Below, piece by piece: positions 1 to 45,630 of a stretch of 64,000 nt of DNA (the stretch's first letter is position 1; each line of letters opens with the position of its first letter). The notes under the pieces were generated by a model that worked only from the letters and a program-made list of their open reading frames with translations, did no database searches and was not told the origin of the DNA. Source of the stretch: Dryococelus australis (lineage: Eukaryota; Arthropoda; Insecta; Phasmatodea; Phasmatidae); contig CM056994.1 of the NCBI GenBank assembly GCA_029891345.1, forward strand, positions 222,900,491 to 222,964,490, given 5' to 3'. A program made the position numbers and the translations under genes.

Positions 1-104
1 AATCACTCATTTCATTTAAACGCTAAACTGAACTATACCAGTAGTAAGAATCGGCATTTTCCTGCTACTCGTACCTTATTTTACAATTAAAAACGTTATG
101 AACT

Positions 105-185
105 ACAACGCCGAATCCGGGATTCGAACCCGCAGACCCTCGCATGGTAAGATGGCTTCCAAAGCAGTGGCGTAGTGACGGGGAC
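105..185 (-). repeat. tRNA-like SINE head (antisense)
   Basis: Read on the minus strand, this stretch carries a good Pol III B-box (GGTTCGAATCC) after a short tRNA-like stem region. No complete tRNA cloverleaf can be drawn, so a SINE head or tRNA pseudogene is more likely than a working tRNA. The body beyond it is not recognised. Confidence 0.45.
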
Positions 186-445
186 GTGAAACTCAGGACG
201 GGAAATATAAACAGCTTTATCTAAAATTGTCATACTGAATGTTTCCTTATATTTTACTAATTTTTGTGGATAACTTTTTAATAAAACAGTTTTGTACTAA
301 GCAAGTGTGTGCTGTATAAAGTCGGACCCCTTATCAATAGGAAAATGTTTTCTCACAATGAGGGTTGGCATGCAGAATTGTTATCAAAAAATGTTCTACT
401 TGAGAATAATGACTGCATCATCTGCATCATCCCGTGTATATTTAA

Positions 446-966
446 CTAGCGACCCGTCCCGGCCTCTCTCGGGTTTGATTTACAAATATGGCTTCGTTTA
501 GTTTTACAGCAAGTGTATACACTAAATGCTTAAGGTAACTAACATAGGATTAATACTGTGTTGTTCACAAAGTCTTCGTAAGTGAACCCCAAAACGACAA
601 AAATGTGTTTCTGTGGGTCATACTTAAAAAATAAACATATGCTGTCGCGGCCTTTTTTGTAGACATTTTTTAAATCTACGAATGTGTAACACATCACTTT
701 GGTGTATCTCTTATGGTTTAGTCAGCGTAAGACATATTTAAAAAAAACCGAAAAGCTGCTTTTTCCGACTTGATTAGAAAACGACGACATTTATCTACTA
801 TCCTTACATTAAATATTAATGTGTTATATACTTAAACCGTTCTCAAGAAATTCTCTAAATTTTGGTGAAAACTGCATCAAAATCCATCTCGTAGTTTAGA
901 ATCCTTAGCCGAATACACAGACACACGCGGCCGGGCGACTGACTTTGTTTTATACTATGTATAGAT
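446..966 (+). repeat. RTE-like retroposon 3' region
   Basis: The left edge (ACTAGCGACCCGTCCCGG) and right part (ACTGCATCAAAATCC, then CAGACACACGCGGCCG, then a TATACTATGTATAGATT end) match the style of widespread arthropod non-LTR tails, usually assigned to RTE-type LINEs or SINEs that borrow their 3' end. No reverse transcriptase is present. The family name is from memory and not searched. Confidence 0.45.
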
Positions 967-1183
967 TAAAGAAAATTTGGCTTTGTTAGCCAACGAGTTA
1001 CTGTTCCGCCATCATGATTTCGGTTTTCCGTGGTTTTTGAAATCACTGTAGGCGAATGCTGGGATGTTTCCTTAATACAAGGCCATGGCCCATTCCTTCC
1101 CCATTCCTACTTGTCTGAGCAACTCGCCACGTGTCTAACGACCTCGCTGTCGAAGGGGCAAGTCTTACCTATTCACATACATA

Positions 1184-1230
1184 TAGGATGTTCACGATAA
1201 AGTAAGGACTTTTGAAATCGACCTTTGAAA
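1184..1230 (-). repeat. Solo terminus of the TA-MITE family
   Basis: A single degenerate copy of the TIR of the MITE family described at 1269-2111, with no partner end. It sits about 40 bp before a full copy, so this spot has taken at least three family members. Confidence 0.55.
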
Positions 1231-1268
1231 AAAAAATTATTGCCCGTAAATATTGTATATTACATGCA

Positions 1269-2111
1269 TAGGCTGTTCACTGTAAAATGAGCACTTTTGA
1301 AAGCCCTGCAAAAGATCTACTTGTATGCACGTAATGTATTCTTACACCTTAAGTAAAATTAACATTGTCATGGGCCTCATCACTTTATTCGTGCGTCGGT
1401 CAAGTGAAATTGTGAAATTATTAGAAAAGTAAATAATTTACAATAATGCTAATTTTTACACTTTATGCTTTAAAAACCTGAAAGAAAACAGAAACTTTTT
1501 AAGTTATCACAAACAGTTACCTATAGACTGTTCACGGTAGAATGAGCACTTTTGAAAGAACTGCTTAAGATCTGCTTGTATGCACGTTGTGTACTTTTCC
1601 GCCTTATGTAAAATTATCATTGCCACGTGCTTCGTCACTTTATTCATCCGTTGGTAAAGTGAGACTATAATTATTGGTAAAGAAAATATTTTACGAATCT
1701 GGTCATTTTTACACTTCAATGCGGTAACAAAAAAACAGAAAGCGAAAGGAATAATTAAATTTATCACAAATGGTTACCTACCAGTTTTTATTCAACTTTA
1801 AGCTATGGAATTACTTTCTATCCATCGTTACCAACTTCACTGGGCGAATGTCTCTCAGTGCGCCCGTTAAAATATATGCAGGTAGGAGCAGTGACTTTTT
1901 TCCAAGGTTGATTTCGAAATTGCTTACTTTATCGTGAACAGCCTATATCACTTTTTTTCGGCGTTAAGAAGTGGAAATACTTTTCCTCTATCGTTACCAA
2001 CTTTACTGCGCGTATGCCACTCAATGCGCCCGTTAAAGTGTATGCAGTCAGGGGCAGTTACTTTTTTCTAAGTTCGATTTCAAAAGTGCTCACTTTATAG
2101 TGAACAGCCTT
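1269..2111 (+). mobile_element. TA-MITE copy, interrupted by a second copy
   Basis: Non-autonomous DNA transposon of about 420 bp once the inner insertion is removed. Its inverted ends start TAGGCTGTTCACGRTAAA and match for about 35 bp. It is followed by TA at 2112-2113. The interior has no open frame. TA target duplication and short TIRs fit the Tc1/mariner superfamily. The sequence GTTACC at 1518 continues after the inner element at 1948, matching the uninterrupted order in other copies. Confidence 0.8.
1524..1945 (+). mobile_element. TA-MITE copy nested in the first
   Basis: A complete 422-bp family member in the same orientation as its host copy. It is flanked by TA on both sides (1522-1523 and 1946-1947), which gives a 2-bp target duplication. 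Being nested, it is younger than the outer copy. Confidence 0.85.
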
Positions 2112-2962
2112 TAAGAGTGCACTTTACCACACGGCCTCACAGTAAGTTGACAGCGAAGAAATACAAATAGCGAAGTTTACTGGTTTTTGAAAGCCAACAT
2201 AGAAAAAAATAGAAATGGCAATCTTAGATAAAAGATTTTGCCAACTTAACGACCAAGTATTTTGCAGTATTACCGTATAGATTTGGCATAATGTCTTGCG
2301 CCACGAAAAAACACAAAAATTGACGGCGTCAGAAATATCTCGACAGAATAACGTCACTGAGGTATAATATTTGCTCTCGTAGTTAGTAGAATCTATTCTG
2401 TATGGTTGCCCTTTCTTTGTTTTCTCTATCGGCTTCCATAAAATTTGTAAAATACGGTAAACCTCAATAGCATTAATTTATGTCCTGTGGCCTCTTAAAT
2501 CGTCGACTTCGCCTCTCTTGCAGAACTTCTTCGTTGTAGTGTCATTATTTCGGATTCATAGTAATTGCTGACAGTGTACTACTATAGGGAATCTACATTT
2601 TACGAATTGTTAAACATTTTTGTGCTTAACTTTTATTGTGTGCTATCTGCTAGTTGTAAAAATTCAGGAACGTATTTATATTTTATCAATAAGTCTTTGC
2701 CTTTTTGCAAGCAAGAAATAACGTGTAGTGAAATTTTTAATTTTCTATAGTCAAACATTTCCAACAGTACCTCTGAAACTGAAATTATGACACGAAAAAT
2801 GAAACATTTCTGCATAATGTGTGTAGCCGAGCCTTAATGTTTCTTGTTTTATTCATATTATAGTAACATTTTGCACATAAGTAACAAATCTATATGACTA
2901 ACAATTCCACATTTTCACTTGGGCGGCGTTTGAATAAAGTGACTAGGTCCACGTCAGTGTTA

Positions 2963-3623
2963 GGACCTGTATACAATTGCGCTATCCCAACCTGTGTCTT
3001 AGGACAAGGATGTGCTGATTAGTGCACGTGACCTTATGACGTCATGGGGCTGTCCCAAGCTGCTGTGTCCCAAGTCAAAGCATTCGGAAAACTGAACTTC
3101 TGTCCCAAGTTGTGTCCTACGCCGATAGACGAAGAAGGAAACTTCAAATAATTTTGCGCGCATTCTTGGAATGTTTACGTTATTAATGTGAACATTGGAT
3201 GTGCAAGGTGGGCTTTCTCAAAACAAATGTGATGAAACGGTAATAAGTAATTAGGGATGTCTTCTTTCGGTCTGAGCAATTTGATTTGAAGGCTAAAATT
3301 TTTTAAAATGTAAGTTTAAAAAAAAAAATTGGATGTCAGTTTGATAACTTATTTAAAATATAACCGTTAAAGCGCTAATTATAAATAAATATTTAAATCA
3401 CCCATTTCGTAAACTTTAAATAATTAGTAATACAGCAAATAAGACATCAGTACGTAACAACAAATAATATGCCGAATTTAGTGCGATCCAGTGTCAGATT
3501 GTGAAAGCTCACTTCGTGCAGCGCATTTGTAGACCATATTCGGACTGCGTCAATGTGACGTCACTTAACGTCGAGTTTCGGATACGTCCACGTCCACAGG
3601 AACGGGCGGATGTAGACAGGCCC
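2963..3623. mobile_element. PIF/Harbinger-like short element, 661 bp
   Basis: Ends are imperfect inverted repeats: GGACCTGTATACA on the left and, read inward on the other strand, GGGCCTGTCTACA on the right. TTA occurs at 2960-2962 and 3624-3626 as a 3-bp target duplication. TIR style and TWA-type target fit PIF/Harbinger. The interior has no transposase; near the left end it repeats GTCCCAA several times. Confidence 0.7.
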
Positions 3624-3659
3624 TTAATATGACATACGGCGGAAGGATACAATGTAATC

Positions 3660-3940
3660 AGGGAAGCAGTTCCTCTGCAGGGCTGTCAGCTCACCGTGTA
3701 CAAGTCCTTAGCCACCCACGTACCCGGCCGCGAGCCGTGTTCAGCCTGCCCCTCGCGCGATGCGAGTGCGAGGCGGTCTAATGTCGGTAATGGACGCTGC
3801 GCGACCAGTGCGTTCCACGTGTAATAATCGGATGGGCTCAGACTGCGGCTGCTCGCAGCACGGGACATTGATCCTTAACGGCCTCGTCCATTTGCGCCGC
3901 CGCGCTGGTGCCGCTTATCCAGATTATATATGGCACTTTG
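3660..3940. other. GC-rich island, no assigned gene
   Basis: CpG-rich block in an AT-rich setting, with short overlapping open frames on both strands and no recognisable protein. A TATATAAT motif near 3925 could serve as a minus-strand TATA element facing the island. It may be a promoter or first exon; nothing proves transcription. Confidence 0.2.
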
Positions 3941-4041
3941 GTTGATGTCGCCGATCTCCATCATCAGACGTGGCAACTTTTCGCGAAAATGTATTTTTGC
4001 TTTTTTGGAAACCCGGGAACTGTTATCGTACTGTCACGAAT

Positions 4042-4417
4042 ATAGACTAAAGGTGCGGTAGACCGATCTCGCTGGCTACGCACAACCAGTCTCCATGTCC
4101 CAACATTGAACTGCTTTTCTGCCAATACGACTTGCAAAAACGGCTTGGATTGGATTTGAGCTTAGAACACTGTTTAGTAAACAAGTGCTTTGTAACGTTT
4201 GTATACTTGCTCTAGCCAATTCGTAACGCAGTTTAAGATTCAACTGGTAAAAGTATTTTCTTAATATAATAGTGGTTATCACTTAGAAATTAAGATATAA
4301 ACCCACACGTTCATCACTGCTGACCATATGACTTTGACATTTATGTTCTTTTGGGGTAGGTCAATGTTGGAACATGCGCAGAAGACGAATAAGGGGTCTG
4401 CCTCATCTTTAGTCTAT
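4042..4417. mobile_element. Short TIR element, 376 bp
   Basis: The left end ATAGACTAAAGGTGCGGTAG is mirrored by the right end (minus strand ATAGACTAAAGATGAGGCAG). A second inverted match just inside (CCCAACATTGA / TCAATGTTGG) extends the TIR to about 75 bp. The interior is non-coding. The target duplication is not clear (TA against TG), and the superfamily is open. Confidence 0.65.
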
Positions 4418-4654
4418 GGGTTACGAAGTATCATTACTGTTACTCCGTACAAGAGATGGGTACGGATGTAGCTGAATGACAACAGATTATATCGTACAAC
4501 ACTACTGTGAATTAAGGAGTTTATTTAGACATGACGATCGTACAATAACATAGAACGGTAATTTTAATCACTCGGGGGAAATTGTGTGAAGTGATATATT
4601 TTAAATTACATTGTTATTATTGATTACTCACGCCTTTATTGTGATAGTCTTATT

Positions 4655-4970
4655 GGAATGTTCTCACCTTAATCATGGAGGCTCTTTTGGTAGACGGCTA
4701 TCGGCGATTGGACACACACATTCTGCGATCTTCCCTTGATGAAGGCATGATGAAGGCGGCCTTGTGCTGGCTGGCCTATATAGGCGCGCTGTTTGGTAAG
4801 TTGTCTCCGATTGTTGGCCGGTGGAGGCGATTTCTGCTGCTGTGCTTTTCGTAATAAGTTGTTGCTATTCCTAGCGTCCTAGTTTAATGTCTCAAGATGT
4901 GATCAGGCAGGGATGTCTACGTAAGGCCTAATCACATCGTAATAGTACGTACATGAATGTGGACCTTTTC
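4655..4970 (+). repeat. Dispersed repeat, family of 26165-26350
   Basis: Shares blocks with the minus strand of 26165-26350, in the same order: CACCTTAATCATGG, then a TGTTGC-ATTCC block, then GTGTGATCA-GCAGGGAT, then GGCCTAATCACAT. This copy has about 100 bp of extra sequence in the middle. No coding function is seen. Confidence 0.55.
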
Positions 4971-5425
4971 TTCTATTCTATACTGGCGGTGAATATTATT
5001 TACTTGCGTAACATGACATTTTCTTGCTACCAATAATTTTTACCCATAACGCATTCTATCCTGCACAGAAGGGAAGACATTGAAACGTCCTCGTGTATTA
5101 TTTATCCGTGTTTTGAGTTCTGCCGTGCAAATATGTAGTACGTGTATGAAAATGACACTATCTGTAGCACTGAATTCATTTTGTATAGTCTTTTTACTCT
5201 CTGTGGAATGCCTTGCGATATTTAGCTCCCACCATAATTTTAGTTTATTTGCCCTTTAAAAAATTCTTCTACTTCAAACGTATATAAAAAAAAAACCTCC
5301 ATATTTATCCGACGTGTGTACTTCAGAACTATCAGGACCAAGAGTTTCTGTGAACAAATGAGCAACATTTTCACATAAAAATATAATGGAAAATGTTGCT
5401 TTTTTTAATTTAACGTGCGTGGTTT

Positions 5426-6056
5426 ATGGTGAGTTTTTTGTGCAAGAGTGGTATAAGTGTAAATTTTGTCTCGTAGACAGTGTTGGTAGATACGCGACTT
5501 TGAAAGCTAGTATTGTTCCGAATGCAATTAAGCGTCAGAGAATTCCAGAGTGTTTAAACGATTTCTACGTATGAATAAATAACACAAGAGAGAAGTAAAA
5601 CTACCTGGTCTCATAAAGAAACAAGTGCAATTACGTGACTCTCCAGGGGCGTTAAAATGAATTAAACGTAAAGAGATGAATTATTAGTCTACCCCGAGCT
5701 GTACGTTAGAAATATAATTTTCACGAAAGAAGTATAACGAACGAACACAACTACGGGAATAACAAGTGGTAAATGATCAAAATTACGTGAGTGTGCAGTA
5801 TGGAATTAACGAATCAAAAATGTCCCTATAAATTAAACTAAAGTCTTCCTAAACACAAGATATATGAAAACACGTACACTACTTGATGTCTCCCGCACAT
5901 ACCTTACACGTCCGTCTGCCTGTGAGATTGTTGAGGAACTTTAGAAACGCAATCCACACGTTAAAAGTAATTACATTATTAACACGCGTAATGAAATCGC
6001 ACCTCTCCCAAAACACATTCGTCCGCCTCGGAGGATGGTGAAGGAATTGCGTGAGT
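5426..6056 (+). repeat. Left arm of a 630-bp inverted repeat
   Basis: The reverse complement recurs at 15866-16496, with most positions matching by eye (roughly 85 percent). The outer edge is sharp at TATGGTGAGTTTT and the inner edge at GGTGAAGGAATTG. Flanking TA occurs at both outer edges. It contains no long reading frame. It could be the terminal repeat of an 11-kb element or one of two separate insertions of a dispersed repeat. Confidence 0.8.
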
Positions 6057-6226
6057 GTATGATGTACGCCTCCTTATATACGTGGAGCTGGCAGGCGAGT
6101 TGAAATTATGGTAAGAAACTCTGAATATAATTTACACACTACTCATATGCATCCTGAATTATATCAGGAAAAAAATGTATTCCTACCAAGCACTGCGTGC
6201 AATTTAATTAGCAAGATGCACAGATA

Positions 6227-6480
6227 ATGATTCAGCACTTCCAGTTAACAATGACAAATAAAGATTTCGAAACTCTCATTTTGAGTTTTAAACTAACACA
6301 ATACCGTAATAGAAGAAATACACGTAATGAAATCGTACAAGGAGCTCTCCTAAAACCATCTGTCCACCTCGGAGGTCAGTTAATGAAAGATGTGCGTCTG
6401 CTTATAAGCTTTTATATATACATGTAGCGTGGCTGAGTTGAAATTTGCAACTGATAGAAACTATTTCTCTACCAAGCTAC
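6227..6480 (+). repeat. Partial tandem copy of the inverted-repeat arm
   Basis: Repeats the inner end of the left arm: ACACGTAATGAAATCG, CTCTCCTAAAACC, GTCCACCTCGGAGG, then GAGTTGAAATT, in the same order and strand as 5990-6110. The inner edge of the left arm is therefore locally duplicated; the right arm shows no such copy. Confidence 0.55.
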
Positions 6481-6779
6481 TATTAACGACTTGATTACAC
6501 TATTCGTCCTACAACTACGTGAATATATAAAAATTACACTACTTGATAAAATTAAAGTATTTAACAATAATGGACGTACTACCAACATTTTTTTCCCCAT
6601 CAAGTCTGTGAAATTCACGGCACTAGTACCGAAACGACAGTTGAAAATCATAGCTAGTTACGCCTACCGAACACAGAAACAAAGTTTACATGATAAACGC
6701 ACTATCACACGAAAATTTATATTTTTTTCCCGACAAATTAAACATTTTTATATTAAAACGAGAAATGCGGCTAACACTA

Positions 6780-7190
6780 TCCGAAACCCGCTGACCGCTG
6801 CGCCCTGTAATGTTCACAGTCCCGTCAAGAAGCCTGCTGGCCACCTACCCCTTGGTCGTGCCACGGAACCCCTGTAGTCACCCTGAGAAGTCGAGAGAGT
6901 CGGTGGCGCGTCCATACAGGGCGGCAGACTGTGACATCTCTTCATGTCGCTCCTCACTGCATTCTTCCCCCACCCCTTGTACAGAAGACGACTTTGTGCG
7001 AAAAGAGAGTTATTTTCAAGGTCACGGAACACCACCACTGAGCGCGTCTTCTGTGATCTGTCCCCCTCCCCCTCTCACCCTCCAAACATAGAGTTCGTTT
7101 TTCGGAGGGCTGCCCTGCCCACGGAGGGCACTACACCCTCATTGTCGATCCAAGGTCACACACCCTCCTGAAGCGAAGTGTGGTCTCTTC
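6780..7190. other. GC-rich block, no assigned gene
   Basis: About 400 bp of higher GC and CT-rich sequence with short overlapping frames on both strands, none recognisable. It lies inside the inverted-repeat frame, about 1.2 kb upstream of the plus-strand finger locus. The AT-rich interval 7190-8400 shows nothing further. Confidence 0.2.
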
Positions 7191-8404
7191 CGAATGCATT
7201 AACCTGTTTTATTTGCAGCGAAATAAAACTCACAAGTCCCGCCGACCAAAAATCCAAGAAAAGAATTCTAATCCAATTAATTATGCCGTTTTCCAGCGAA
7301 CTTATTAAGGTATTTCCAGGAAACTAAGTATATTTTCGTACAAGAGATATTTGTAACTCACTAAAAAAAAAACATTGAAAGAACACCGTTTTTCAAACAA
7401 GTATTATTCCATTTACCTTAGTTTCCACTATTACGATGGAAGACACGACATATGCATACATATTCAAACTTTCAATCTGTTTTTTTTTTTTTTTAATATA
7501 TGTGCATAACAGAGAAAAATATGTATTTTACATGAATATTTGTCCACGACTAAAAATTCACTTATAACCAAAGTTCAAATTCAAAAGTTTCCCAGCCGAG
7601 ATTTTAGATACACTCTCTGCCATAAAATGTGTATATACTCGAACTGATTTACAAATCGATTTCCGTAGTAAACAAATTTGGAAGTAATATTAAAGAAGTA
7701 GCACGTATCCATGTTGAAATGACTTCTATCGGAGATGTAATATATAAATTTCATCATATTTCAATACATATAAGCAAAATTTGTAAAATGGCGACCATAT
7801 TGTAGTTGTATAGCCCATATTTTAGGATAATACATTACGACTGTTAACCAAATATTTACAGTGTAAAAAGATATCCAAGACAAATATATTTATTCCATAC
7901 AACTAATGGAATAGACATAACAAATTATCAGACAAAAGTTATTGGGAAAAACGAATTTCGTATTATATACATAGGTTTAAAACAAAAGACCATTAAGACA
8001 ATCACCGCTCAAAATTGCTTACCCAACAGACTAGTCTCCGATTAACACAAGCGTTTAGTATACAAATTCTTTAAAAAATGGTCTACAAAATACTTCCAAA
8101 CCCATCTCTCCCTTCTACATTCCTGAAATTAAATTATTATTTATTCATTTTAATTGAATACCAAGTAAAGATGTATTCCATCTAACATACGTAGATATCT
8201 AATCACATGGTGAATTAGTATACATACAGATATTAGAACGGAAGACATTTTATCGTCATTAATGAAAATTGACACTGTTTAAAACAGTACATTCATATAG
8301 AAACAAGTTGGTTGTCATTCTGACATTGTGGGGCATCTATTCGGAAGTAAACTTTATCCTCACACAGAAGATTATTCATTTAACATACACTGATGAAAAT
8401 GGAG

Positions 8405-8934
8405 ACTACCGAATAAACTACACTGCAAATACTGAGGGAAATTTTCGCTTTCTTCTAAAATGTTCATAGACATGAAAGGAGCGAATGTTTGAAGAATTCA
8501 TCTCGTACGATTCTTAGCTGCAAATATTGTTTTCGCCAGTTCGCACGAATGGATAACTTGAGTCGTCATGTCCAGATCTGTAGAAAAAATAATCTTCCTC
8601 CTGAGAAAGTAAATGTACCGTCTACACTACATATATCACAGAAGGAGATGGAAATAACGTAATTACAAGAAATTACATAGAATCGCATTGTATGAAATAT
8701 ACACTAACACGTGAACGTAACGATTTTCGACATAAACTACCGCAACCAGCTGTAGAGACCACTATCGGTAACGATATAGCTCATTCAAAGCAAAGTAAAG
8801 TCGATATTTATGATGAAACATCAGGTGAGGATGGCAGTGAGGATGTCAGTGATACTGTTGAAGACATTCCTTCAACAAATGCTGTGAAGAAGGCAAAAGA
8901 CATCAACAATGCTCGTTTCATATTTCCCTAAGAC
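8405..8934 (+). pseudogene. Twin CCHC zinc-finger locus 1
   Basis: Intronless remnant of a zinc-finger protein. The clearest part is a finger at about 8520-8585, reading SCKYCFRQFARMDNLSRH and then VQIC: spacing C-x2-C-x12-H-x3-C, with the fourth ligand a Cys. A decayed first finger lies just upstream, joined by a linker containing HRHERSEC. Downstream, an open 79-codon frame from ATG 8692 encodes a basic-then-acidic tail (YDETSGEDGSEDVSDTVED). The finger-linker-finger spacing matches locus 2 (12.5-13.8 kb, minus) and locus 3 (37.6-38.4 kb, minus). The copy is broken in a few places. Nucleic-acid binding is likely from the fingers; the actual role is unknown, as is whether the family is a host gene family or cargo of a mobile element. 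Confidence 0.6.
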
Positions 8935-9235
8935 TCCAACGAGCTTGTAGACAGGCTTATATATTTATTTTAGTTTAAATAACACGGTGAATACTACAGA
9001 ATAAGAGAGGTGGTTTTGATTATAACAACACTTAAGGAACGAGGTTACATCGAATGAAGTAATATCTACAAACACCTGAGAAGTATGATAATAAATTTTA
9101 GTTAACCTTATTAATTAACCAAAACAAAGTAATTATTTCAAGTAAACATTGCGTGATAGGAATATGTTTTAATGTGAAATATTATGTCTTCCTCAAACCA
9201 ATTAAGTCGTTTTAAATTGGCTCCAATGTTAATTA

Positions 9236-9395
9236 TGTTTTTGAGGAATAAATTATATTATTTGAGGAATAAATTATATTATTTGAGGAATAAATTATGT
9301 TTTGTGGTATAAACAGTCTTATTTGAGGAATACACAGTCTTATTTGAGGATTAAACAATCTTATTTGAGGAATAAAGTATTTTGTGGAATGGTTT
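9236..9395 (+). repeat. Tandem repeat, about 22-bp unit
   Basis: About seven units of the type TTATTTGAGGAATAAATTAT with small changes, just downstream of finger locus 1. It resembles an expanded 3' untranslated region. Confidence 0.75.
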
Positions 9396-9419
9396 TATGG
9401 AATAATGTGTAAACAGTAT

Positions 9420-9900
9420 TAAAACCTTTTTGTATCTATGTTTCTGAAACATCCTATACCTGCTTGTACTATGATTTTTGTAACCTCATATACTGAAACT
9501 TGATAGTGTTCAATGCTTTTTGTTATCCTGCAGTTGTTTTGGAGTAAGGTGTATTTGTTAGTGTTGTACATAAATTTTTGGATCTACCTGTACTTTTGAA
9601 ATAATTGGGTAATTTGTGTGACATCCTATACTTGATTGATGCTATGTGTGTTACTGTTTTGAGATGGCCTGTAATTTTTTGTGTATGTTTTTGGAGCAAC
9701 ATGTACTTGCTTGTGTGTTTTGGAACATTCTAGATTTAGTTTTGTTAAAATGATTTGATAACTTGTTCGATGTTTTGTGTCATCCAATACTTGTTTATGG
9801 GTTTTTGAGCTAACTGTATTTGGTAGTGTTAAAATGTATATAAATTTGTGGAATAACTGTGCTTGTATACGTTTTTATAAATAAATTTATCATGTAAAAT
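9420..9900 (+). other. T/G-rich degenerate repeats downstream of locus 1
   Basis: Phrases such as GTTTTTGGA, CATCCTATACTTG and GTACTTG recur every few tens of bases, ending in ATAAATAAATTTATC, which includes an AATAAA-like signal. It may be the 3' end of the locus 1 transcript. From here to about 11900 the sequence is AT-rich and nothing is recognised, apart from an AT dinucleotide tract near 10970. Confidence 0.35.
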
Positions 9901-11989
9901 TAATTTTTTAATTTTATTTAACTTCACTTCTTAAAAAGTGAAATTGTTTTCGTAAGAAAATTATTTTCTCGACGGAGTGAGAGCGTGAGAGGAAAGTAAT
10001 TAAAATGTCATAACAGAGAGAGACTCTTAAATTTTCTATTAAAAGTATTTTGCATTAACACAAAATACTGTTGTACTAAAAAAAGCCAGAGGAAATAATC
10101 TGAAAGCAAGCACTCCAACCACTTTTCCATAACTAACAACATATCATACCATATCGGGTAAGAAACGCTTGATAATAGTTGGTGTTAAAGTCAGTGACCA
10201 TATAATTATAAAAGGAATAATAAATGAAAAAAAACATATTTAAAAAATATATATAAATTCGCTTCTGCATGTGAAAAAACTAGATATGCTCAATTTTATT
10301 GATGTGTAAACTTAAATGAATCATGTGGAATTTTTCCGATCAAACATTATTAGATAGTAAATTTATGCTCGCTTCGAAATCGTAAGACTTATAGCGTTTG
10401 CCAATGACTCCAGATGTGAAAAAACCATTATTTTTAGAGATCTACGACCTTAGCAATGTGACTTGCGAGTTTCTCCAGAGTCATATACCTTAAAGGTTAA
10501 ATTTCAAAGTTTTTTTTCCAATTGTACCAACTACAAAACCCCAGATATCAGAGGTTGCCGGCCTGACTCCGACAAACTCCAGCAGAATGCATTTTGATTT
10601 TTTATACCCTAAGGAAAGTGACTCTTTTCACAAAGCAAACTGTCAAAATCCATCCTGGAGGGAGGAGACTTCAGGTTAACGATTTTAACTCTCTAGGATT
10701 GCAAGGTCAAAATGTCTTCCTTTCTGTTTAGAAACTCTCGCACAAAATATTGTGTTTTCTACTTGATAAAAAATTAATATTCACTTTGCAAGCTCCATTA
10801 CACACAAAAATATTAATAAATTAAAAAAACACAGAAGACTTATATAAACTGAAAAAATATTTTTGAGAGAACTTTTACTTCCTCGGGTCCATTAACGGAA
10901 AATTTTCGTATATGGGTAGTGTAAATATGATTAACAATATACAAATTAAGAAAACAGGAACACACATATATATACATATATATATGTATATTAGATTTTA
11001 AAGTGTAGCATGTTTCTTCAACTTGACAGGGAATCAAGCTGAAAAATGTCTCTAAGCCAGAAACTCTAATTACCTGTTTCACTGTTGCATACCATTACCA
11101 CTGATAAAATTTCCAGTGCTACCAACCCAAGATTTTCGGCTATACTATTGTAAATGAAAATATAATAAAATATTGTTTAACTTTATTATTCTTTGTTTCA
11201 TTTTAAACAAATACTATCTCATATTGAAATTTTATTTCCCTACTATGTAATTAAGCCAATAAAAAATAAGTAACAGAGCTGAATTTTATTTTGAAAAAAA
11301 ATTTCAACTATTTTTTCTGAGTTTGTGTAAAGTATGACTGTGTTTTTTCATCACCAGAAAGTGCCTTCATGTTGAATCTTCAGATGCAACAGTTGTAATC
11401 TTTCTGCTGTGAGAATTTTTTCTTTTAAGTTGGCTGGACTCTCCCAGTTGTAGGACAGCGGGGAAATGTGTTGTGACACTAAGGGCTCTTTCTGCCTAGC
11501 CCTGAAAAGGTTTTTGTGTGTGTGACTTTCAGTTTTGTTAAATTCCCTATTTCTTGAACTTGACCAGCGACCCGGCAATGTTTTCTCGAGATTTCCGAGT
11601 CTGTTCCTTCCGTTTCAAAATTTATTCATTTAGACATGTTCCTTTCTCTACATCATATTTTGTAAGTTCTCCTCAGCTCTTCAGAGTGTGTTTTAATGGA
11701 AATGTTAGTTTTTCTCCCTCATCAAGTTAACATCAACAAACTTTAAAAAAAAAAATCGTGAAAGTGAGCAAACAGATAATCTGAAATTAAATTCAAGTAA
11801 ACAACTTACCATCACCTACTCGTCTCAAGAACATTTAATATGCAGTCATATAAAAGTACTTAGGACTCCAATCATTCTCAGAGTAGTGACACTGGGAAAA
11901 TTTTCGAACTAATATATGTCACAGTATTCAATTTAATCATATAAAACTTTTATTCAAAATTCTTATTTTTTAATTATCCTTAAGAGCTT

Positions 11990-12400
11990 AATATTTACAA
12001 TGACTTTACAACAAACATTTACACACACTAAAAGACATTTTAAATCACAATTTTTTTTTAGAAATACATACACTAAACATTTGTTTGACATACTTTAAAA
12101 CAAACACAAGAGAATGGAATATACAACATTCATATTCCAAACATAATTACCAAACAAATTTTTTCAAAGACATTTTAACAAAAATAAAACATTTTATGAT
12201 TTTAACTACCAAACATTCCTTCAAAGTTATTTACATCATAAACCTACTACTACTTCTGCTACTATTACTACTACACTACTGTTACACCATTCCGAAATTG
12301 TTTGACACAGATTACAAGATCATACATATATATATATTTACAAAAAAAATATTAATAAAATATTTACAAATATAATACAGCAATCTGAAGATCGTCATTT
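11990..12400 (-). other. A/C-rich tract downstream of locus 2
   Basis: On the minus strand (the sense strand of locus 2) this is T/G-rich, with recurring TGTTTGG and a TAGTAG run. It mirrors the composition of the tract after locus 1. No protein is recognised. Confidence 0.3.
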
Positions 12401-12920
12401 TTACCTAAAACTATGGATATATATATATATATAATATTTACAGCAACTGTTTACATAATGATGCACAGAGGGGTGTTCATTTGTCAAATCCGGGTTACTT
12501 CCGCTCACACACTCAAATGCACGCAGTTTCCAGTAGATGATTTGTCAGACTGTGTGAATTTCTTCTTCTTATTATTATGTATTGAAGACAGTAGTAATCG
12601 TGTTACAGTTAGGCAAACATGGAGCAACAGCACTGATTCTGATGCAACAGGTGTTGTAAACAGTTGTAGACAGCAATAGTTAGCTGTGAAGTTGGTCGTG
12701 GAACAGGAGGTGTGTGTGGTGGTGGCAGATTGACGTCATCAGCGGTGTGGTGTTGTAGATGCCATGGTTGAAGATATTATGACACTATCTGCAGTATTGA
12801 GGGGAAAAATATTTGGACAGATAATATTTAATAGCCTCTAGTAAGACACCGTCCGATTTATGTATTTCTAATTGTATTAAAACCTTGAAGAAAACATTAT
12901 ATATATATACATAGGAGCGA

Positions 12921-13000
12921 AAGAAGAGATTTTGGCGGCTCTCGAAACTTGGGCATTGAGGGTCGATGAGGGTGAAGCAAGATGAGTAATGGAGTAGCGT
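12921..13000 (-). repeat. SINE-A 3' fragment
   Basis: Minus strand reads TTCACCCTCATCG, then CTCAATGCCCAAG, then GAGCCGCCAAAATCTCTTC, matching the 3' part of the full SINE at 59225-59490. It lies within the tail of finger locus 2. Confidence 0.6.
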
Positions 13001-13364
13001 TAGAATATCAGACTTCTTATCGCTAATAAACTTGGATTATTTACCACAAGCGGTATTGAAACATATAGGTGCCCCTGTCTGCACCAGTTTTACTCCTATC
13101 ATTAATTATCTTCGCATCATGTTAACCTGCTGGCGAACACGCTTGCCACTATCTCGTATTTGAGACTAGATGATGAAGTCTTCACTTAGGCTGGGGAATT
13201 GATTTATCCTTCATCTCTGAATAAACATATCTACTTTTTGAAGGTAATGAAATAGGTAGGGCAGAAAATTTTAAGTGTTTTGCAGTAGATGTCCTATGAG
13301 GAGCTAACTGAGGAGCAGATTGTGGAGTAAGTGGAAGTGGTTCTATTTGTAGCATTGGCTAAGG

Positions 13365-13590
13365 ATGTAGTGTTGTTTGTGGTGCTGCCTTAGGATATGG
13401 TGCTGGCTGAGGATATGGTGCTGGCTTATGATGTGCTGGCTGAGGATATGGTGCTGGCTTATGATGTGCTGGCTTAGGATGTGGTGCTGTTTATGGTGTT
13501 GCTTAGGATGTGGTGCTGTTTGTGGTGTTGGCTTAGGATGTGGTGCTGGCTTAGGATGTGATCCTTTTTGTGGTGTTGATTGTGGTACAG
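13365..13590 (-). repeat. Minisatellite inside finger locus 2
   Basis: Tandem copies of a G/T-rich unit built from GGCTTAGGATGTGGTGCT-type phrases, 16 to 30 bp long with internal variants. On the minus strand it encodes His/Pro/Gln/Ala-rich peptide in more than one frame. Confidence 0.8.
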
Positions 13591-14274
13591 TTGTGAAGCA
13601 AGTGGAGGCGATGAACCAGTGTTGCAAGTTTCACAATGTCTCTTTAATACATCACTCCAAGAAAACTGCTTCTGACAGACATCACACTCAAACTCCTTTC
13701 TTGAATTTTTCATTCCACAGCTCGTTCTTTCATGTCGATGCATGCTGCACTGAGCTGTAAATTCTTTACTGCAGAAGCGACACAGAAAATACATTATTCC
13801 TTCCGTACTATTCCAAGTTTATAATGAAACTGCTTATGAAAGGTTATAGGTAATTTTAGGAATTGCAACTGTGAGCAATAGTTAATTTTTAGGGATTGTA
13901 AATTTAATTTAACTATCCGTTTTATCACACAGTACGTCTGAAAACGGTCTTTTCATTAAAGATACAGAAAGTGAATCTAATTGTTTTTTTCTCCTACAAC
14001 AGTGCAATTAATTTCATAATATCTGTAGATCGTGCTGAAAACAGAAAAAAAGAACCCAAGTTTATTCCCTCATCATGTCATAGTTGTAATTAATAGTAAC
14101 ATAAATTAATATAAAGAAAAAATATTTTTGAGGGAACTTTAATTTATTTAAGAAAGTCAGTCGACTAAAGCGACGTGTTTTTACGAAAGAGACGGGTATG
14201 AGTCATTCTATAGCCTTGTGTATAAAGCCAGGTATTGGATGTCAGAAAATTGAGTGTGTGCGAAGCGAGCGAAA

Positions 14275-14326
14275 GCGAGGTCTCAAGAGCCGATGAGGGT
14301 GAATCATGCATAATTTGAGTAGCGTA
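14275..14326 (-). repeat. SINE-A 3' fragment
   Basis: Minus strand ATTCACCCTCATCGGCTCT then TGAGACCTCGCT matches the conserved core of SINE-A. Only the core remains. Confidence 0.55.
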
Positions 14327-14329
14327 ATA

Positions 14330-14645
14330 GATTGCATGCGCGGGCCAGAGTTTTGGCCTGCTTGCAGAGGTGCGAGTGAGAGAATGGTTCAGTAAACTGT
14401 CGTAGTCCGCTCGACGTACCACTGTTCAGGCATAATTCCACCAGACAACTTCCCCTTCCCCCCGTTGTCATGCAAAGCCAATGGGCGCGCATGTGCTCCA
14501 GCGGGAGGGACACTGGGAACTTCTCATCCAACCACGCCACTCTGGCGACTTCTCTCTGCGGCACGAATTACTGGTCTGCAGCTCGCATCCACTATACAAT
14601 TCACCGTATCCCGGGACCTGCCGCGCCTCGCCAATATTTTCCAGC
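14330..14645. other. GC-rich block upstream of locus 2
   Basis: CpG-rich island of about 300 bp with several overlapping short frames and no recognisable protein. It lies about 550 bp upstream of the ATG of finger locus 2 and could hold its promoter; this is inference from position and composition only. Confidence 0.25.
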
Positions 14646-14739
14646 TACATGTTTGGAGCAAGCAGACTGCACTTAGAATATTGAAATTTTAACTATTGCA
14701 ATTTAAGCCCAGTATAAAAAACTTCCGAACATAAATGCA

Positions 14740-15065
14740 CTTTTTGAAAAATACTATGAGTTACTCGACACCGTCAAAACTAATGTACACCATAAAAATA
14801 AAAATGATGAATTTACACCATCAAAATTGTTTACACCGTAAAAAAAAATTATGTACAATGTAAAAAAAATATGAGTTACTTGACTCCATAAAAAATTTGC
14901 ACTAAGCTACACCGTCAAAAATATGTTCTAGGGTGCATCTATTACATTATCAAAAATACATTCAAGGCTACACCATCAAAAATACGTTAAAAGTTACATA
15001 GCTTACACCATCAAAAATATGTTCTAGGGTATAGCATAACAATTCTTTACACTGTCAATTAAAGA
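14740..15065. repeat. Degenerate tandem repeat (TACACCRTCAAAAATAT)
   Basis: The phrase TACACCATCAAAAATAT or close variants occurs about ten times with irregular 20-50 bp spacing. The longer unit ATATGTTCTAGGGT appears twice. It is a decayed satellite-like tract. Confidence 0.7.
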
Positions 15066-15166
15066 TTTTCACTTAAATATTTCAGCAAGGGAGCAACACA
15101 ATGGATATTAATAATAATACCAACGAAACAAACACTCTTAAAAAATGACATTTTAAAATACTACTC

Positions 15167-15168
<2 letters not shown>

Positions 15169-15227
<59 letters not shown>
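15169..15227. repeat. (CT)n microsatellite
   Basis: About 29 uninterrupted CT dinucleotides. Confidence 0.98.
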
Positions 15228-15231
<4 letters not shown>

Positions 15232-15307
15232 TTTCTCTATCTGTCACACTTGCAGTTATCCAACAACTTTTAAAAATGAAATGTTTTAAAATTAACTTAA
15301 TTACCCA

Positions 15308-15830
15308 AACCACCACATCACAAACACATGTAAAACATTTCATTTGTTAGAAATACTCAAGGCTCATATATTAATCTTCCAATCGTCCATCTCCAGGTAA
15401 CTCATACAGAATAACTTGGAGGCTGAGGTTATGCACCTCCTGAATACACGAGGTGTATACAGCTTAGTTCTTCCCCTGTCTTAGCCATGCCATAGTTCAT
15501 ACAACAGTCTTAACCAAAACCGACTCTTAAACCACTCATTAAAAAACTACTTGCTAACTAAATATATATGTTCAAACCACCCCATCACATTTAGATCAAA
15601 AACATTTCATTCATTAGAAGTATTCAAGTCTTGTACATTCATCTTTCAATCATCCTTCTCCAGGTAACTCACGCAGAACAAGCTTGGGAGCTGAGGTTAT
15701 GCACCTCCTGAATATGCGAGGCATATCCAATGTATTTCTCCCTTGTTTTAGCTGTTCCACAGTTCATACCTCACACAAATAACAGCCCTCCCTTAAATAT
15801 GTCTTAAAACTATGTAAAACTAACTAAAAT
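15308..15830. repeat. Direct duplication, two units of about 267 bp
   Basis: Units start at about 15308 (AAACCACCACATCAC) and 15575 (AAACCACCCCATCAC). Shared blocks include CATCTCCAGGTAACTCA, GAGGTTATGCACCTCCTGAA and a short hairpin (ACACGAGGTGTA). The copies differ at perhaps one base in six, so the duplication is old. Confidence 0.75.
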
Positions 15831-15865
15831 TGATTGAAAAAAAAAAAAGAAAAACAATTTTCCTG

Positions 15866-16496
15866 CCATTCCTTCACCACCCTCCGAGTCGGACAAATGT
15901 GTTTTGAGAGAGATGCGATTTCATTATGCGTGTAAATAAAGTAATTTTTTTAACCTGTGGATTATGTTCTTAAAGTTTCTCACCAGTCTCATAGGTAGAC
16001 AGACGTGTAAGGTATGTGCGAGAGGTGTCAAGTAGTGTACGTGTATGTGTTTTCATAATCATGTGTTTAGGAAGACTGTCGTTTAATTTATAGGGGTATT
16101 TTTGATTCGTTAATTCTATACTGCAAACTCACGTGATTGTGAATGTTTACCACTTGTTATTCCTGTAGTTGTGTTCTTCATTATACTTATTTTGTGTAAA
16201 TTATATTTCTAACGTACAGCTCGAGATAGTCTAATAATTCATCTCTTTACATTTAATTAATTTTAACACCCCTGGAGAGTCACGTAATTGCACTTGGTTC
16301 TTTACGAGACCAGCTAGTTTTACTTCTCTCTTGTGTTATTTATTCATACTTAGAAATCTTATAAACACACTGAAATTCTATAATGCTTAATTGCATTCGG
16401 AATAATACCTGCCTTCAAATTCGCCTATCTGCCTACACTGTCTACGAGACACAAAATGTACACTTATACCACTCTTGCACAAAACTCACCATATAT
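15866..16496 (-). repeat. Right arm of the 630-bp inverted repeat
   Basis: Reverse complement of 5426-6056: blocks such as CTGGAGAGTCACGTAATTGC, CACAAGAGAGAAGTAAAACT (minus strand) and CAAGAGTGGTATAAGTG (minus strand) line up in order. Just outside, at 16590-16625, a short related phrase (GTGCAAGAGTGTACTAAGG, minus strand) hints at a local partial duplication of the outer edge. Confidence 0.8.
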
Positions 16497-16974
16497 TTTT
16501 TTTCACACCCCGTCCCCAACACGCCACACCTCATCCGAGTGCCAGAGCTCCAAGTGCGAGGACTTACCACAGCTGCACCCCGCAAAAGGAAAGATAGAAC
16601 ACCCTTAGTACACTCTTGCACCAAATACAATTTTTTTTAATCAATATAATAGATTTAACCCTTTCATTAAATTTAGGCCTTCAAATGTTATTAACCATTT
16701 CGATTTTTCAATCAATTTAATTAACCCTTTCAGTAAATTTAATCTACCTCTTGATATCAAATTACTTAGGTCAATCAAAAAAGGCGGCATCTCTTTGGGG
16801 TTGAAACCCTCACGCCCCTACTACTGGAAAGCGAGACTGGATTCTGAGAGGTTGTTCTTGTTTTCCGTTCTGTCTGTTCGGTGTGATCGTCGTACATGTG
16901 TATCAGGCTTAACACCACTGAGCCCAATACAACTGTAGTTATCTCGGCGAATGAATATTCTGTTATTTCAAGCT

Positions 16975-17420
16975 TTGGCCTGTGTGTAGTAAGCATTGTA
17001 GATATGCCGCGGCGGAATAGACCACATTTCGTGCAATTAACGGACTTTGAGCAAGGTCGTATTGTGGGCCAGACAGAAGGAGGATGGATACTCGTTCCAA
17101 AAGATTGCCCAACACATAGTACGTCGCGAATGACGTAACTGGTGGGATGAACGAACGGGTGATGAGAGCAGATTCTGCCTTGTCGTCAATGACGGTCGTT
17201 TGGGAGTGCGGCGTCGACCAGGAGAGCGACAACAACCAGAGGGTATACGGACGGGATGGCGTCGGCAACTAACCTCCACCAATTGCAACAACAGGTAGAA
17301 TAAGCATGTAATATTATTCCCCAAGATGACATCCGACACCTTTATGATCGTCTCTGCGCACGACTGCAGGACAGCATCGTCGCTAAAGGCGGCTACACAG
17401 GATGCTCACATTGTTGTTCA
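16975..17420 (+). pseudogene. Tc1-like transposase, internally deleted
   Basis: Decayed cut-and-paste transposase. An ATG at 17004 opens the family N-terminus (MPRRNRPHFVQLTDFEQGRI), followed by a helix-turn-helix remnant (SFQKIAQHIVRRE). The next recognisable part is the region around the second conserved catalytic block (DESRFCLVVNDGRLGVRRR, 17161), then the C-terminus (QDDIRHLYDRLCARLQ and SIVAKGGYT, 17322-17400). Most of the sequence between these parts is missing. A full member has about 340 residues; well under half is left, with frame changes. Terminal inverted repeats were not located. It cannot be active. Confidence 0.8.
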
Positions 17421-18904
17421 AGACACTCTGTAGCATTTGAACATAGGTGTACGACCCTACGATCATTATCATATACAGTGTACTACCTGTATGATTATTG
17501 AATGAAACTTCCATTCATGTCAGACAATTGCATCCGTGTGTTCATTTTCTGTTTTCCGCCAGTGAATTTATACCTGCTGCTAATTCTTTCCAATTCATCA
17601 CGCATTGAGGCTCGTAGATTACCGTTTTCGACGTCGACAATTTTCGTAAAGGGCAGGCAATACCTAACTTTCTCGTATGAATTCCGCAGGCATGCTCCAA
17701 CCAGATCACACCCAACCTATTTCCCTGTCGCATTACTCCTGCTGTAAGAAGGGCTTTTCGTAATCGATTATCACAAAATAAATTACAATAATTTTTCATG
17801 AATTGATCATTCAAAACCTAATTGTTGTTCATATTGCTAGGAAACATCGCTTTGAATAGATACAAATGACTTCATGTATTTATTGGGAAGAAAATAACTT
17901 TCAAAAAAATACTTGACTTTCGTGGATGGATACGTTTGCTTTAGACCCTTGTGTTTTTCAGCAAAGTTCAATCAAGGATTCTCGAATATACCGATAATAG
18001 TTATAATTGAATGGTTTGTATAACATTTTGTCCTAGAGATTTTAGTATTGAGGAATGAAATTGATTTTTTTTGTGAAATTTCTTTACAGACACTAGCACT
18101 TCACTAAATCAATTAGACGTGACTTGATGGCCCTGAGCGTGTCCGTCTGCTTTGGCGACAAACAACCTCGCAGAGGCGCCTCGTGTCTACCTACTCTTGC
18201 CGTACAGTTCCGTGTGTGTCTTCCACGCGGCCATTACTGATTCCTGCCGCGTGCCGGGAGGACAAGCGCCACGATCTTTTGTTCTGCCTGCCTGCTGTCT
18301 TTGTTTCTTGCACTGGACTTTGTGCACCTGCGTAGAGCAGCTGGACCACACCTTGTGGAAGTGGCGTGTACTTCTGATGTTTAGTTGAATACTCTCCTCT
18401 CCGACCTTAAGAGGAGTGTGTACGTGCGCGTCCAAGGTCAAGAAGCGAGGGAGCGATACAGGCGACACGAACACGCACGCCTAGTGCCTTATCGCTCCTA
18501 CGCGCAACGCGTGCAGTGTTTCCGTCGTGGTCCTGTACTGTGCAAATCAGATCTGTAATAGTTGGATTTTATTACATGTAATGAAAGGACGCAGATTAAA
18601 CTGCGTCCGTATGTTTGTACTTTCCTATTGCTGCTTGAGAAAACTGCATAGGCAAGCTTCTAAAATGCGTTATTTGACCATTTTCACGAATTCTTTTCTC
18701 CACGAATATACTTAATATGTTAAAATAAAAACATAGAATTATAGATAATATTTTTTACCTTTTCTAGCAGAAGGTCGTGTATACAAAACATATATTTACC
18801 AAGATACGCGAATACGCGCAAACAACGATTTCACAAAAAAAAAAGTTTCACTTTCACACTCCTCTTAACTGTGCGTAATCCAGGAGTGCAATGCACACCT
18901 TTGA
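17420..18904. other. Unassigned sequence with a GC-rich block
   Basis: AT-rich except 18120-18500, which is GC-rich with overlapping short frames on both strands. A pyrimidine tract ending CCGTACAG near 18211 resembles a plus-strand splice acceptor, but no protein is recognised. Confidence 0.2.
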
Positions 18905-19329
18905 TAGGCTGTTCACGATAAAGTGAGCACTTTTAAAATCAACCTTAGAAAAAAGTCACTGGCCCTGCCTCCATATACTTTAACGGGCGCAATGAGTGAC
19001 GTGCGCCCAGTAAAGTTGGTAACGAAGGATGGAAAGTAGTTCCATATCTCAACGTCGAATGAAAAGTGTTAGGTAACCATTTGAGATCATATAAATTCTT
19101 TCGTTCTCTTTCTGTTTTTTCTTTTTCATGCATCGAAGTGTAAAAATTAGCAAATCTGTAAAATACTTACTTTTCTAATAATTTCACAGTTTCACTTGAC
19201 CGGCGCATGAATAAAGATATGAGACCATGGCAATGTTAATTTTAAATAAGACGGGACAATACACAACGTGCATACAAGTAGATCTTAATCAGCGCTTTCA
19301 GAAATGCTCATTTTATCGTGAACAGCCTA
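18905..19329 (-). mobile_element. TA-MITE copy, complete, 425 bp
   Basis: Complete family member in reverse orientation relative to the copy at 1269. Both TIRs are well preserved (TAGGCTGTTCACGATAAA and CGTGAACAGCCTA). The right flank begins TAG; the left TA seems mutated to GA. Confidence 0.8.
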
Positions 19330-19550
19330 TAGTACGTGGTACTCCACCTGTGAGTCTGCCTGTCGCATTCTATAATATTGGCGAGAAGCCACAGACGGGA
19401 ATTTGTCGATCACGCCTAGAATTCGTCAATTTCTAGGCGTCCCTGACGGGAGACTTTGTTCGCTGACCAATATCAGAAAATAATTTTGAGCACGTAACTA
19501 ACAAAACAGTTGAAAATATGCCGGCGTTTAGTTATTATGTTTGCTTTCAA

Positions 19551-30245: not shown

Positions 30246-30301
30246 CAATTGCAAGCGCGACAGTTGATCATTGTCGCCATAGATAGATAGTATTTTAACT
30301 A

Positions 30302-30714
30302 AAGGCTGTTCTCCATACAAAGAGCGCTTTTGAAATCAACCTTAAAAAATAGTTACTGCTTCTACGGGCGCACTGAGTGACCTGCGCCCAGTAAAGTTGG
30401 TAACGATGGAGGGAAAGTAGTTATATATCTTAACGTCGAATAAAAAGTGTCGAGTAACCATTTGTGATAACATAAATTGTTTATATAGCTTTCTGTTTTT
30501 TTTTATGATTAGAAGAGTAAAAATTAGCAGATTTTTTTTTTTTTAATGCTTTCTTTTCTAATCATTTTACAGTTTCACTTGACCGACGCATACAGAAAGC
30601 GATGATGCTCAGGGAAATGATAATTTTACATAAGGTAGGAAGAACACACACCTTTCGTGCAAATATATCTTAAGCAGGGCTTTCAAAAGTGTTCATTTTA
30701 CCGTGAGCAGTCTA
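30302..30714 (-). mobile_element. TA-MITE copy, complete, 413 bp
   Basis: Reverse-oriented copy flanked by TA at 30300-30301 and 30715-30716. TIRs are AAGGCTGTTCTCC and (minus strand) TAGACTGCTCACGG. The interior keeps the family marker GCGCCCAGTAAAGTTGGTAA. Confidence 0.8.
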
Positions 30715-30719
30715 TATAA

Positions 30720-37215: not shown

Positions 37216-37639
37216 CTGTAATTTTCATCTTATCTAAAAAAACATTTTTCGAAATAGCAGTATACCTACATGCATGATGCGGGACTTTGACTATCTGCAT
37301 AATTTATTAAATCTATGTTTGTATTAAAAAATTTTAATTTGTTCAATTTTAAAAATTATTTTTATTAATTTATATAATCGTACATATAGTGCAATGGTAC
37401 TTTATACGATACTTTTACATTAGATTAATTTTATTTCTGTGCCTTTTAAATTTTAATTTTATTGTGGCAAATTAGATAAACATAAAACAAAATTTTATTC
37501 ACTAGCATTTTTGTACTTAATTTATTTAATACAGTTGTTCATGCCCTCGAAAAATATTACAATATTTTTCGATGTGTATGCATCTCAATATATGCAGCTT
37601 TGTTGTAGGTTACAAACTTTTATGTATCTCGTTATTCGC

Positions 37640-38408: not shown

Positions 38409-38678
38409 GGATTACCTGGCGTAAAAGCTACCTGAGACGATCCGCCTTTCACATTAGCTGTTGTCAAACTAAGTCATTAGGCAGGCTTTAGGTGCTTATC
38501 ATTATTGTATATTCGAACCACATAAACAGAGCCGTTCGTCAGACCATGTGGAAACTGCTCCAATCGAAGACATTTACTCGCAAGCACGACCTAGCGACGA
38601 GGAAGCCAACCCGGAACACAAGTGACCGATGTGTATAGACCTCGATGAAGTTTTGAATGATTTTGTCAAAAGTTTTTG

Positions 38679-41734: not shown

Positions 41735-41739
41735 TGCCA

Positions 41740-45074: not shown

Positions 45075-45212
45075 TTCACCCGAAACATCAGTCTGATCAA
45101 ATCCGAAGTTAGATGCTCCGAATCCAGCCTCCGTAATGCAGTGGATTGTACACTAGCTTATTGTACGAGGTTTTCTGGGTTAAAATCCTGGGTAAGGCAC
45201 ATGTGTATTTGT
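45075..45212 (+). repeat. Pol III-like tail after array 1
   Basis: GATGCTCCGAATCCAGCCTC, TAATGCAGTGG (A-box-like) and GGTTAAAATCCTGG (B-box-like, decayed) occur in the order and spacing of a tRNA-like head. The same sequence follows array 2. Confidence 0.55.
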
Positions 45213-45213
45213 A

Positions 45214-45592: not shown

Positions 45593-45630
45593 TAATTGTC
45601 TTACTGCACGTGTGTATTTGCAATTGTCTC

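Follow-up and report, generated by a model that had tools for sequence, protein, structure and literature searches.

The genome of the phasmid Dryococelus australis (assembly GCA_029891345.1, contig CM056994.1) holds an 11-kb segment that is framed by an inverted repeat of about 630 bp and contains two zinc-finger genes pointing towards each other, which raises the question of what kind of DNA this is and where it ends. The segment lies in a stretch of 64,000 nucleotides (positions 222,900,491 to 222,964,490, forward strand), here called the window, and positions below are counted within it. A sequence-only reading had proposed that the finger frames lie in a large terminal-inverted-repeat element, and this central idea held: the arms recur in pairs, the arms of a pair are sisters, their contents are related, and the elements share an outer boundary. 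The segment from 5425 to 16825 is very probably the decayed remnant of a Polinton/Maverick element, with internal deletions and rearrangements.

The inverted repeat is real. Comparison of positions 5425-6050 (plus strand) with 16493-15865 (minus strand) by blastn and pairwise alignment gave 549 identical positions in 622 ungapped columns (88.3%), and the alignment of 633 columns contained 42 transitions, 31 transversions and 11 gap columns. This pair was the longest and most identical among 11 inverted pairs of at least 300 bp detected by blastn in the 64-kb window, where no third arm copy was found apart from a degraded tandem piece at 6317-6445.

An arm search of the 3.415-Gb genome (3,415,067,245 bases) listed 50 matches, 40 of them long, and 40 were scored of 4933 first-look candidates. 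Fourteen of the 40 scored long arms form seven inverted pairs, designated C2 (the window), C10, C1, C17, C11 and C3 twice (C3a and C3b); 40 random arms would be expected to give 0.014 pairs within 30 kb. In all seven, the plus arm lies on the left and the minus arm on the right. Inverted pairs had been anticipated at distances of 9-12 kb, and pairs do recur, but with arm-to-arm outer spans of 11.1, 14.4, 24.0, 24.1, 13.7, 16.1 and 13.5 kb. The inverted match within elements runs from about 190-410 bp outside the arm edge as first placed to 0.56-2.7 kb inside it, at 74-95% identity (interrupted on the outer side in C17), and the longest aligned inverted piece per pair measures 0.7-1.9 kb.

In an iqtree tree of 22 arms (the window's two and 20 of the other 38), pair mates were sister arms in all seven pairs, with ultrafast bootstrap values of 96 for the window, 92 for C10, 86 for C3a, 100 for C1, 98 for C11, 97 for C17 and 100 for C3b. 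Kimura two-parameter distances within pairs were 0.128 in the window, 0.008 in C1 and 0.113-0.157 in the remaining pairs, and the median between elements was 0.179 (216 of 224 pairs). Since sister arms and recurring inverted pairs coincide, the window's arms are the two ends of one element. The alternative, that a dispersed 630-bp repeat inserted twice by chance, in opposite directions, on either side of unrelated finger copies, is scarcely credible. It could draw on the presence in the window of ten further inverted pairs of 300 bp or more and on the 26 scored arms that have no partner among the 40 (partners may sit among the unscored candidates), but it is opposed by the single orientation of all seven pairs, by the sister arms in each, and by the confinement of related contents to the segment. 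Pairs with unrelated contents and no shared boundary, named in advance as one outcome that would speak against an element, were not what was found; the contents are related and a common outer boundary is present.

That boundary lies further out than had been proposed. Homology continued outward past the first-placed arm edge in 19 of the 22 aligned arms (judged by eye), often via a TA/TG microsatellite, and alignment of the outer flanks revealed AGTAGTAGGGG as the common outer start of the elements. At the 12 arms of the other six pairs, this start was exact in six, carried one mismatch in three and two mismatches in one, and was not found in two. On the window's right side it is exact at 16825, about 330 bp outside the first-proposed edge, and this is the true right end; on the left side AGTAGTAGGGG was not found, and the outer approximately 330 bp of the left end of the window copy are lost. 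The outer edges had been described as sharp, which is correct on the left (a real break at about 5423-5425) but not on the right, where homology continues to 16825. The TA said to stand just outside both arms is part of them: TATGG is present in both, so the TA, which is self-complementary, represents two further arm bases. No duplication longer than 2 bp was found at the first-proposed edges of the window arms. A TA target duplication of the Tc1/mariner kind was rejected, given that the TA lies within the arm and the true ends about 330 bp further out. A solo long terminal repeat or single insertion was also rejected, the outer flanks of 5-9 bases recurring just as scattered 5- or 6-base repeats well within the inner edges.

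Both ends could be located in four pairs (C1, C11, C10 and C3a), whose end-to-end lengths are 14.4, 15.0, 16.7 and 24.7 kb, and one end is missing in C17, C3b and the window. Exact 6-bp target duplications were recognised by eye in two of these four, TGTGAA/TGTGAA at C11 and CATACT/CATACT at C1. The common boundary and target duplication that had been sought were thus obtained in part: the AGTAGTAGGGG boundary is shared, but duplications flank two of the four pairs only. The family has moved as units with fixed ends.

Pfam scans of 26 open frames over the six other pairs detected the double-jelly-roll capsid PF21738 above the cut-off in C10 (1.6e-25) and C1 (1.4e-10), contrary to an initial hint that the layout was unlike that of elements with a capsid or a polymerase. 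Frames of the relatives also contain the polymerase-like motifs NSLYG/NSVYG and DTDSL, and one C1 frame contains ERFNRT, which we take to be a mark of Maverick integrases. On its ends, partial duplications, size and capsid together, the family is clearly assigned to Polinton/Maverick. Like these elements (and adintoviruses), it has long terminal inverted repeats, an (AGT)2 end motif, where (AGT)2 or (AG)3 is the terminal motif expected, and a span of 14-25 kb; the 6-bp duplications (two of four), the capsid frame (two of six pairs) and weak polymerase B pieces extend the likeness. Polinton/Maverick elements are 15-20 kb long (PMC4028283), and in vertebrates Mavericks make 6-bp duplications, with 5'-(AGT)2//(ACT)2-3' as the commonest end motif (PMC8097293). 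The elements described here differ in the paired C2HC finger cargo of some copies, in the lack of a recognisable core gene in the window copy, and in aligned terminal repeats of about 1-3 kb. The window copy itself is placed in this family on its repeats and its interior homology.

Another DNA element with long terminal repeats, of the foldback (Galileo, Tetris) or Tc1/mariner type, is most improbable. Galileo and Tetris resemble the present family in their long, partly internally repeated terminal repeats and their deleted interiors, but they generate duplications of 7 bp (Galileo) or 8-10 bp (Tetris) (PMC3573991, PMC4079207), whereas C1 and C11 have 6-bp target duplications. Together with the AGTAGT ends, these fit neither 7-10 bp nor TA, and two relatives carry a capsid frame.

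Alignment of the window with the six relatives showed a mosaic. Matched DNA comprises, from left to centre, 5423-6758, 6946-7209, 7616-7764, 9499-9960 and 10146-10991 (reversed relative to C1) and, from centre to right, 11280-12755, 12858-13340, 13591-13833, 14029-15029, 15073-15840 and 15863-16791. Between window 4000-19000 and the fetched stretches, 65 matches fell inside elements and 6 outside; for the rest of the window (1-5000 and 17001-64000, about 52 kb), 0 of 52 matches fell inside elements, its matches lying in the outer flanks. The features of the copy are:

5425-6742, plus strand: inner portion of the left terminal inverted repeat (main pieces matching all six other pairs at about 76-84% by blastn)
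6317-6445, plus strand: degraded tandem copy of 5981-6107 inside the left repeat (68.7% over 134 columns)
6946-7209, plus strand: subterminal pieces, including part of the left GC-rich block (matches to C10, C3b, C11 and C1)
7616-7762, plus strand: short stretch common to the interiors of C11, C1 and C17 (DNA comparison)
8459-8581, plus strand: finger 1, remnant of a C2HC zinc-finger pair whose first finger is disrupted by a frame shift and a stop, the second being readable
9499-9960, plus strand: pieces common to the interiors of C11 and C3a, with part of a T/G-rich tract (DNA comparison)
10146-10991, minus strand: reversed pieces of the C1 interior, 7082-6172 from the C1 left arm (79% over 660 columns, plus shorter neighbours)
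11280-12755, plus strand: block whose C3a counterpart, 1102-2614 from the arm, adjoins the outer part of the terminal repeat on its inner side (DNA comparison)
12858-13316, plus strand: pieces adjoining the finger gene, common to C3b at 3878-4626 (DNA comparison)
13343-13600, minus strand: low-complexity tandem repeat, with a T/G-rich plus strand, that encodes the His/Pro/Lys-rich tail following finger 2
13474-13818, minus strand: finger 2 open frame, 114 amino acids, with paired C2HC fingers at 13624-13794 and all eight zinc ligands
14029-14899, strand not assigned: block with the right GC-rich block, in the same orientation in C17 and reversed in C11 and C3a (DNA comparison)
15073-15840, strand not assigned: block with a 267-bp duplication, common to C17 and C3a (DNA comparison)
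15865-16825, minus strand: right terminal inverted repeat, with the inner part lost at 15865 and the outer end AGTAGTAGGGG at 16825

The segment had been described as symmetrical, with a GC-rich block upstream and a T/G-rich tract downstream of each finger. Both GC-rich blocks exist (best 400-bp windows of 57.5% on the left, a value reached by 0.3% of 400-bp windows, and 54.75% on the right, reached by 1.6%), but they cannot be aligned with each other, and the window has 20 merged blocks with a GC content of 50% or more, of which they are two; judging from their matches, both are element DNA, but from different parts of the element. The T/G-rich tracts are not mirror images either, as the sense strand is T/G-rich at finger 1 but A/C-rich at finger 2. 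The two halves of the segment align just at the arms and in chance-level pieces. A mirror-image inverted duplication of a whole half was rejected, because the arms are 88% alike whereas the DNA of the two fingers is barely alignable (best 39 columns, E 0.005).

The mosaic order of the blocks makes deletions and recombination between copies likely. A variant of the Maverick reading, compatible with it, takes this further, and we regard it as a serious possibility somewhat short of probable: the left interior (6946-10991, with finger 1) would derive from another copy, nested or recombined, and joined between repeat positions of about 1056 and 1102. Consistent with such a join, window 5469-6524 corresponds to C3a 0-1056 and window 11280-12755 to C3a 1102-2614, the stretch between being extra relative to C3a, and the left interior matches the interiors of C1, C11 and C3a in mixed order and orientation. 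However, C1, C10 and C11 match the window unbroken to 6742-6757 in at least one arm, so that lineages may just differ in the inner repeat, and no additional 630-bp arm copy lies between 6742 and 15865.

The two arms of the window have changed unequally. In the arm tree, the right-arm branch is more than twice as long as the left-arm branch; the right arm has 17 CpG and the left arm 30, and differences from left to right lean towards G-to-A and C-to-T. From the CpG loss and branch length, the right arm looks as if it had been methylated and decayed faster.

The two finger genes do converge as first described, finger 1 (8459-8581, plus strand) facing finger 2 (13624-13794, minus strand), but finger 1 is disrupted by its frame shift and stop. 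They share 41% identity over 46 amino acids. In finger 2, ten residues separate the two inner cysteines, and its DNA is 79-80% identical to the corresponding places in C3b and C10. A genome search with finger 2 gave 18472 loose first-look candidates, of which 150 were scored, all with E below 1e-20 and on many contigs; in about 58 of these 150 (counted by hand), the matched stretch is free of stops. Twelve finger loci were returned, the best-scoring of the 150 and the window's among them.

All 11 other finger loci match element interiors away from the finger, and none of their matches lies outside elements. Eight of them (L030-L036 and L039) match 2.1-3.0 kb of window 11.9-15.8 kb with the order kept, block 11280-12755 being partly present; L037, L038 and L040 match over 0.6-0.9 kb, with finger surroundings that resemble those of C3b, C10 and C1. 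In the unit common to the eight loci, the finger is flanked by the repeat-proximal block on one side and the 14-15.8 kb blocks on the other, a place taken in C17 by polymerase-like pieces; this arrangement suggests a shortened, non-autonomous Maverick lineage. The position of all 11 loci in element DNA, together with the roughly 52 kb of surroundings that match no element interior, argues that finger 2 is cargo of the element, largely decayed in the copies examined. Zinc ligands are lost in nine of the 12 finger copies and all eight are kept in three, the window's included; L031 keeps all eight, yet has a stop. The median pN/pS (nonsynonymous over synonymous differences per site) of the 12 copies was 0.74 in the true frame versus 0.92 and 0.64 in control frames, with no sign of selection. 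Finger 2 matched a phage 'endonuclease' family (1e-4) and an unknown family (0.0043) in PHROGs, which we take as generic zinc-finger or His-rich resemblance, and a PDB search returned generic finger matches.

Outside the segment, at 37807-37982 (minus strand), a third C2HC finger pair is present as a relic with a shifted frame and a stop, downstream of a Ser/Thr/Pro-rich frame at 37632-38411. It has no arm nearby and does not match the interiors of the Maverick copies fetched. A role of the arm as a finger promoter was rejected, as this relic has no nearby arm. A possible fourth relic at about 310-357 (minus strand) is weak, with a score not above noise.

The paired fingers could instead belong to a host lola-type BTB zinc-finger locus with alternative paired-finger exons, the arms being incidental. 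Paired fingers with a C2HC first finger do recall lola isoforms (PMC1947980), and the third relic lies outside the segment without resembling element interiors. This explanation is very unlikely, as the finger 2 family is dispersed over many contigs and all 11 loci examined lie in Maverick-like DNA, and an exon cluster at a single host locus was rejected on the same grounds.

Several observations weigh against the assignment of the segment to a Maverick carrying finger cargo. In the window copy, neither capsid, polymerase nor integrase was recognised. This agrees with the initial statement that no transposase, polymerase or capsid is seen; the six frames of the segment gave no Pfam match, although such long scans are insensitive and also missed the real finger 2. 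Having lost its left end, the window copy cannot show a target duplication, and no matching 6-bp duplication was found at C10 and C3a, two of the four pairs with both ends. PF21738 was detected in just two of the six other pairs and was not found in the tested frames of the remaining four. Polymerase B (PF03175) is weak in C3a and C17 (1e-3 and 6.5e-4, below the curated cut-off), as is a match to phrog_1907, a phage DNA polymerase family, in a relative's frame (2.5e-4). The integrase-like frame of C1 has neither a Pfam integrase match nor a PDB match, and no ATPase was found by a crude Walker-A pattern in open frames of at least 45 amino acids. Finger frames, expected inside the pairs, are enclosed by two of the other six, C10 (also capsid-bearing) and C3b, but not by the remaining four, and no DNA match to finger 1 was found in the six sister elements. 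The 11 finger loci, being the best-scoring of 150, are biased towards the window's lineage. An unexplained weak match to PF04983, an RNA polymerase Rpb1 domain (1.3e-4, below cut-off), lies in C1 frame L045:9240-9638 (plus strand).

Further observations concern the relatives and the searches. The C1 frame L045:9240-9638 is also common to C11, C17, C3a and C3b. An Integrase_H2C2 match in frame L049:348-1259, in the right part of C17, looks like a gypsy-type retrotransposon inserted in the Maverick and was not counted; the other Pfam matches in the relatives' frames were weak and below cut-off. Rfam and tRNA scans, and viral and prokaryote collections queried with the arm or finger, gave nothing informative, and a sigma-70 scan is not meaningful in animal DNA.

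Polintons are copied by their polymerase B, and their integrase joins the ends to target DNA, which yields a 6-bp duplication. The window copy would have arrived as a fuller copy through integrase-mediated insertion after self-synthesis by the element's polymerase B, and would subsequently have lost its left end and its core genes. Its present state would be that of a fossil, whose terminal repeats differ by 0.128 substitutions per site. The finger gene most likely encoded an accessory DNA-binding protein of the element, and the shortened finger lineage may have spread with help from complete copies. A bolder proposal, which we consider rather unlikely, is a recombinant, non-autonomous and satellite-like Maverick subfamily of many copies in which the finger module replaces the replication and capsid core, and which parasitises complete Mavericks, its paired C2HC finger protein recognising the shared terminal repeats.

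Elsewhere in the window, an abundant dispersed repeat of about 430 bp occurs in both orientations at 1261-2113, 18904-19332, 30300-30717, 41411-41736, 45212-45597 and 48312-48756. Most of the window's remaining inverted pairs stem from this repeat, which several Maverick copies also have in their outer flanks. The open frame at 38876-39226 (minus strand) bears what we take to be a resemblance to the helix-turn-helix of mariner-like transposases; Pfam gave just a weak DUF4041 match.

Mavericks rank first in abundance among the repeat types of Timema cristinae (145,675 copies, 3.13%) and third in Clitarchus hookeri, in a paper whose main text does not contain the term 'zinc finger' (PMC5691397). 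The main text of the D. australis genome paper, supplements aside, does not contain the term 'Maverick', and it lists 1.56 Gb of repeats that could not be classified (PMC10268593). By its description, MV04 of Mavirus, a virophage related to Polintons, is a comparable case, a C2H2 finger gene of unknown function (PMC3671162), with no homology claimed. No earlier report of finger cargo in phasmid Mavericks was found among titles, abstract openings and some passages, which does not prove its absence.

The element is of an ordinary kind; what is modestly new is the amplification of its finger cargo. A repeat-framed segment that had lacked an explanation can now be assigned to a known type of element and given a defined end, and finger frames that might pass for host genes of one family lie within element DNA. 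The corrected ends and the finger marker provide a handle for classifying part of the unclassified repeats of D. australis. If the finger-only lineage is true, an animal genome would harbour shortened elements that parasitise their large virus-like relatives.

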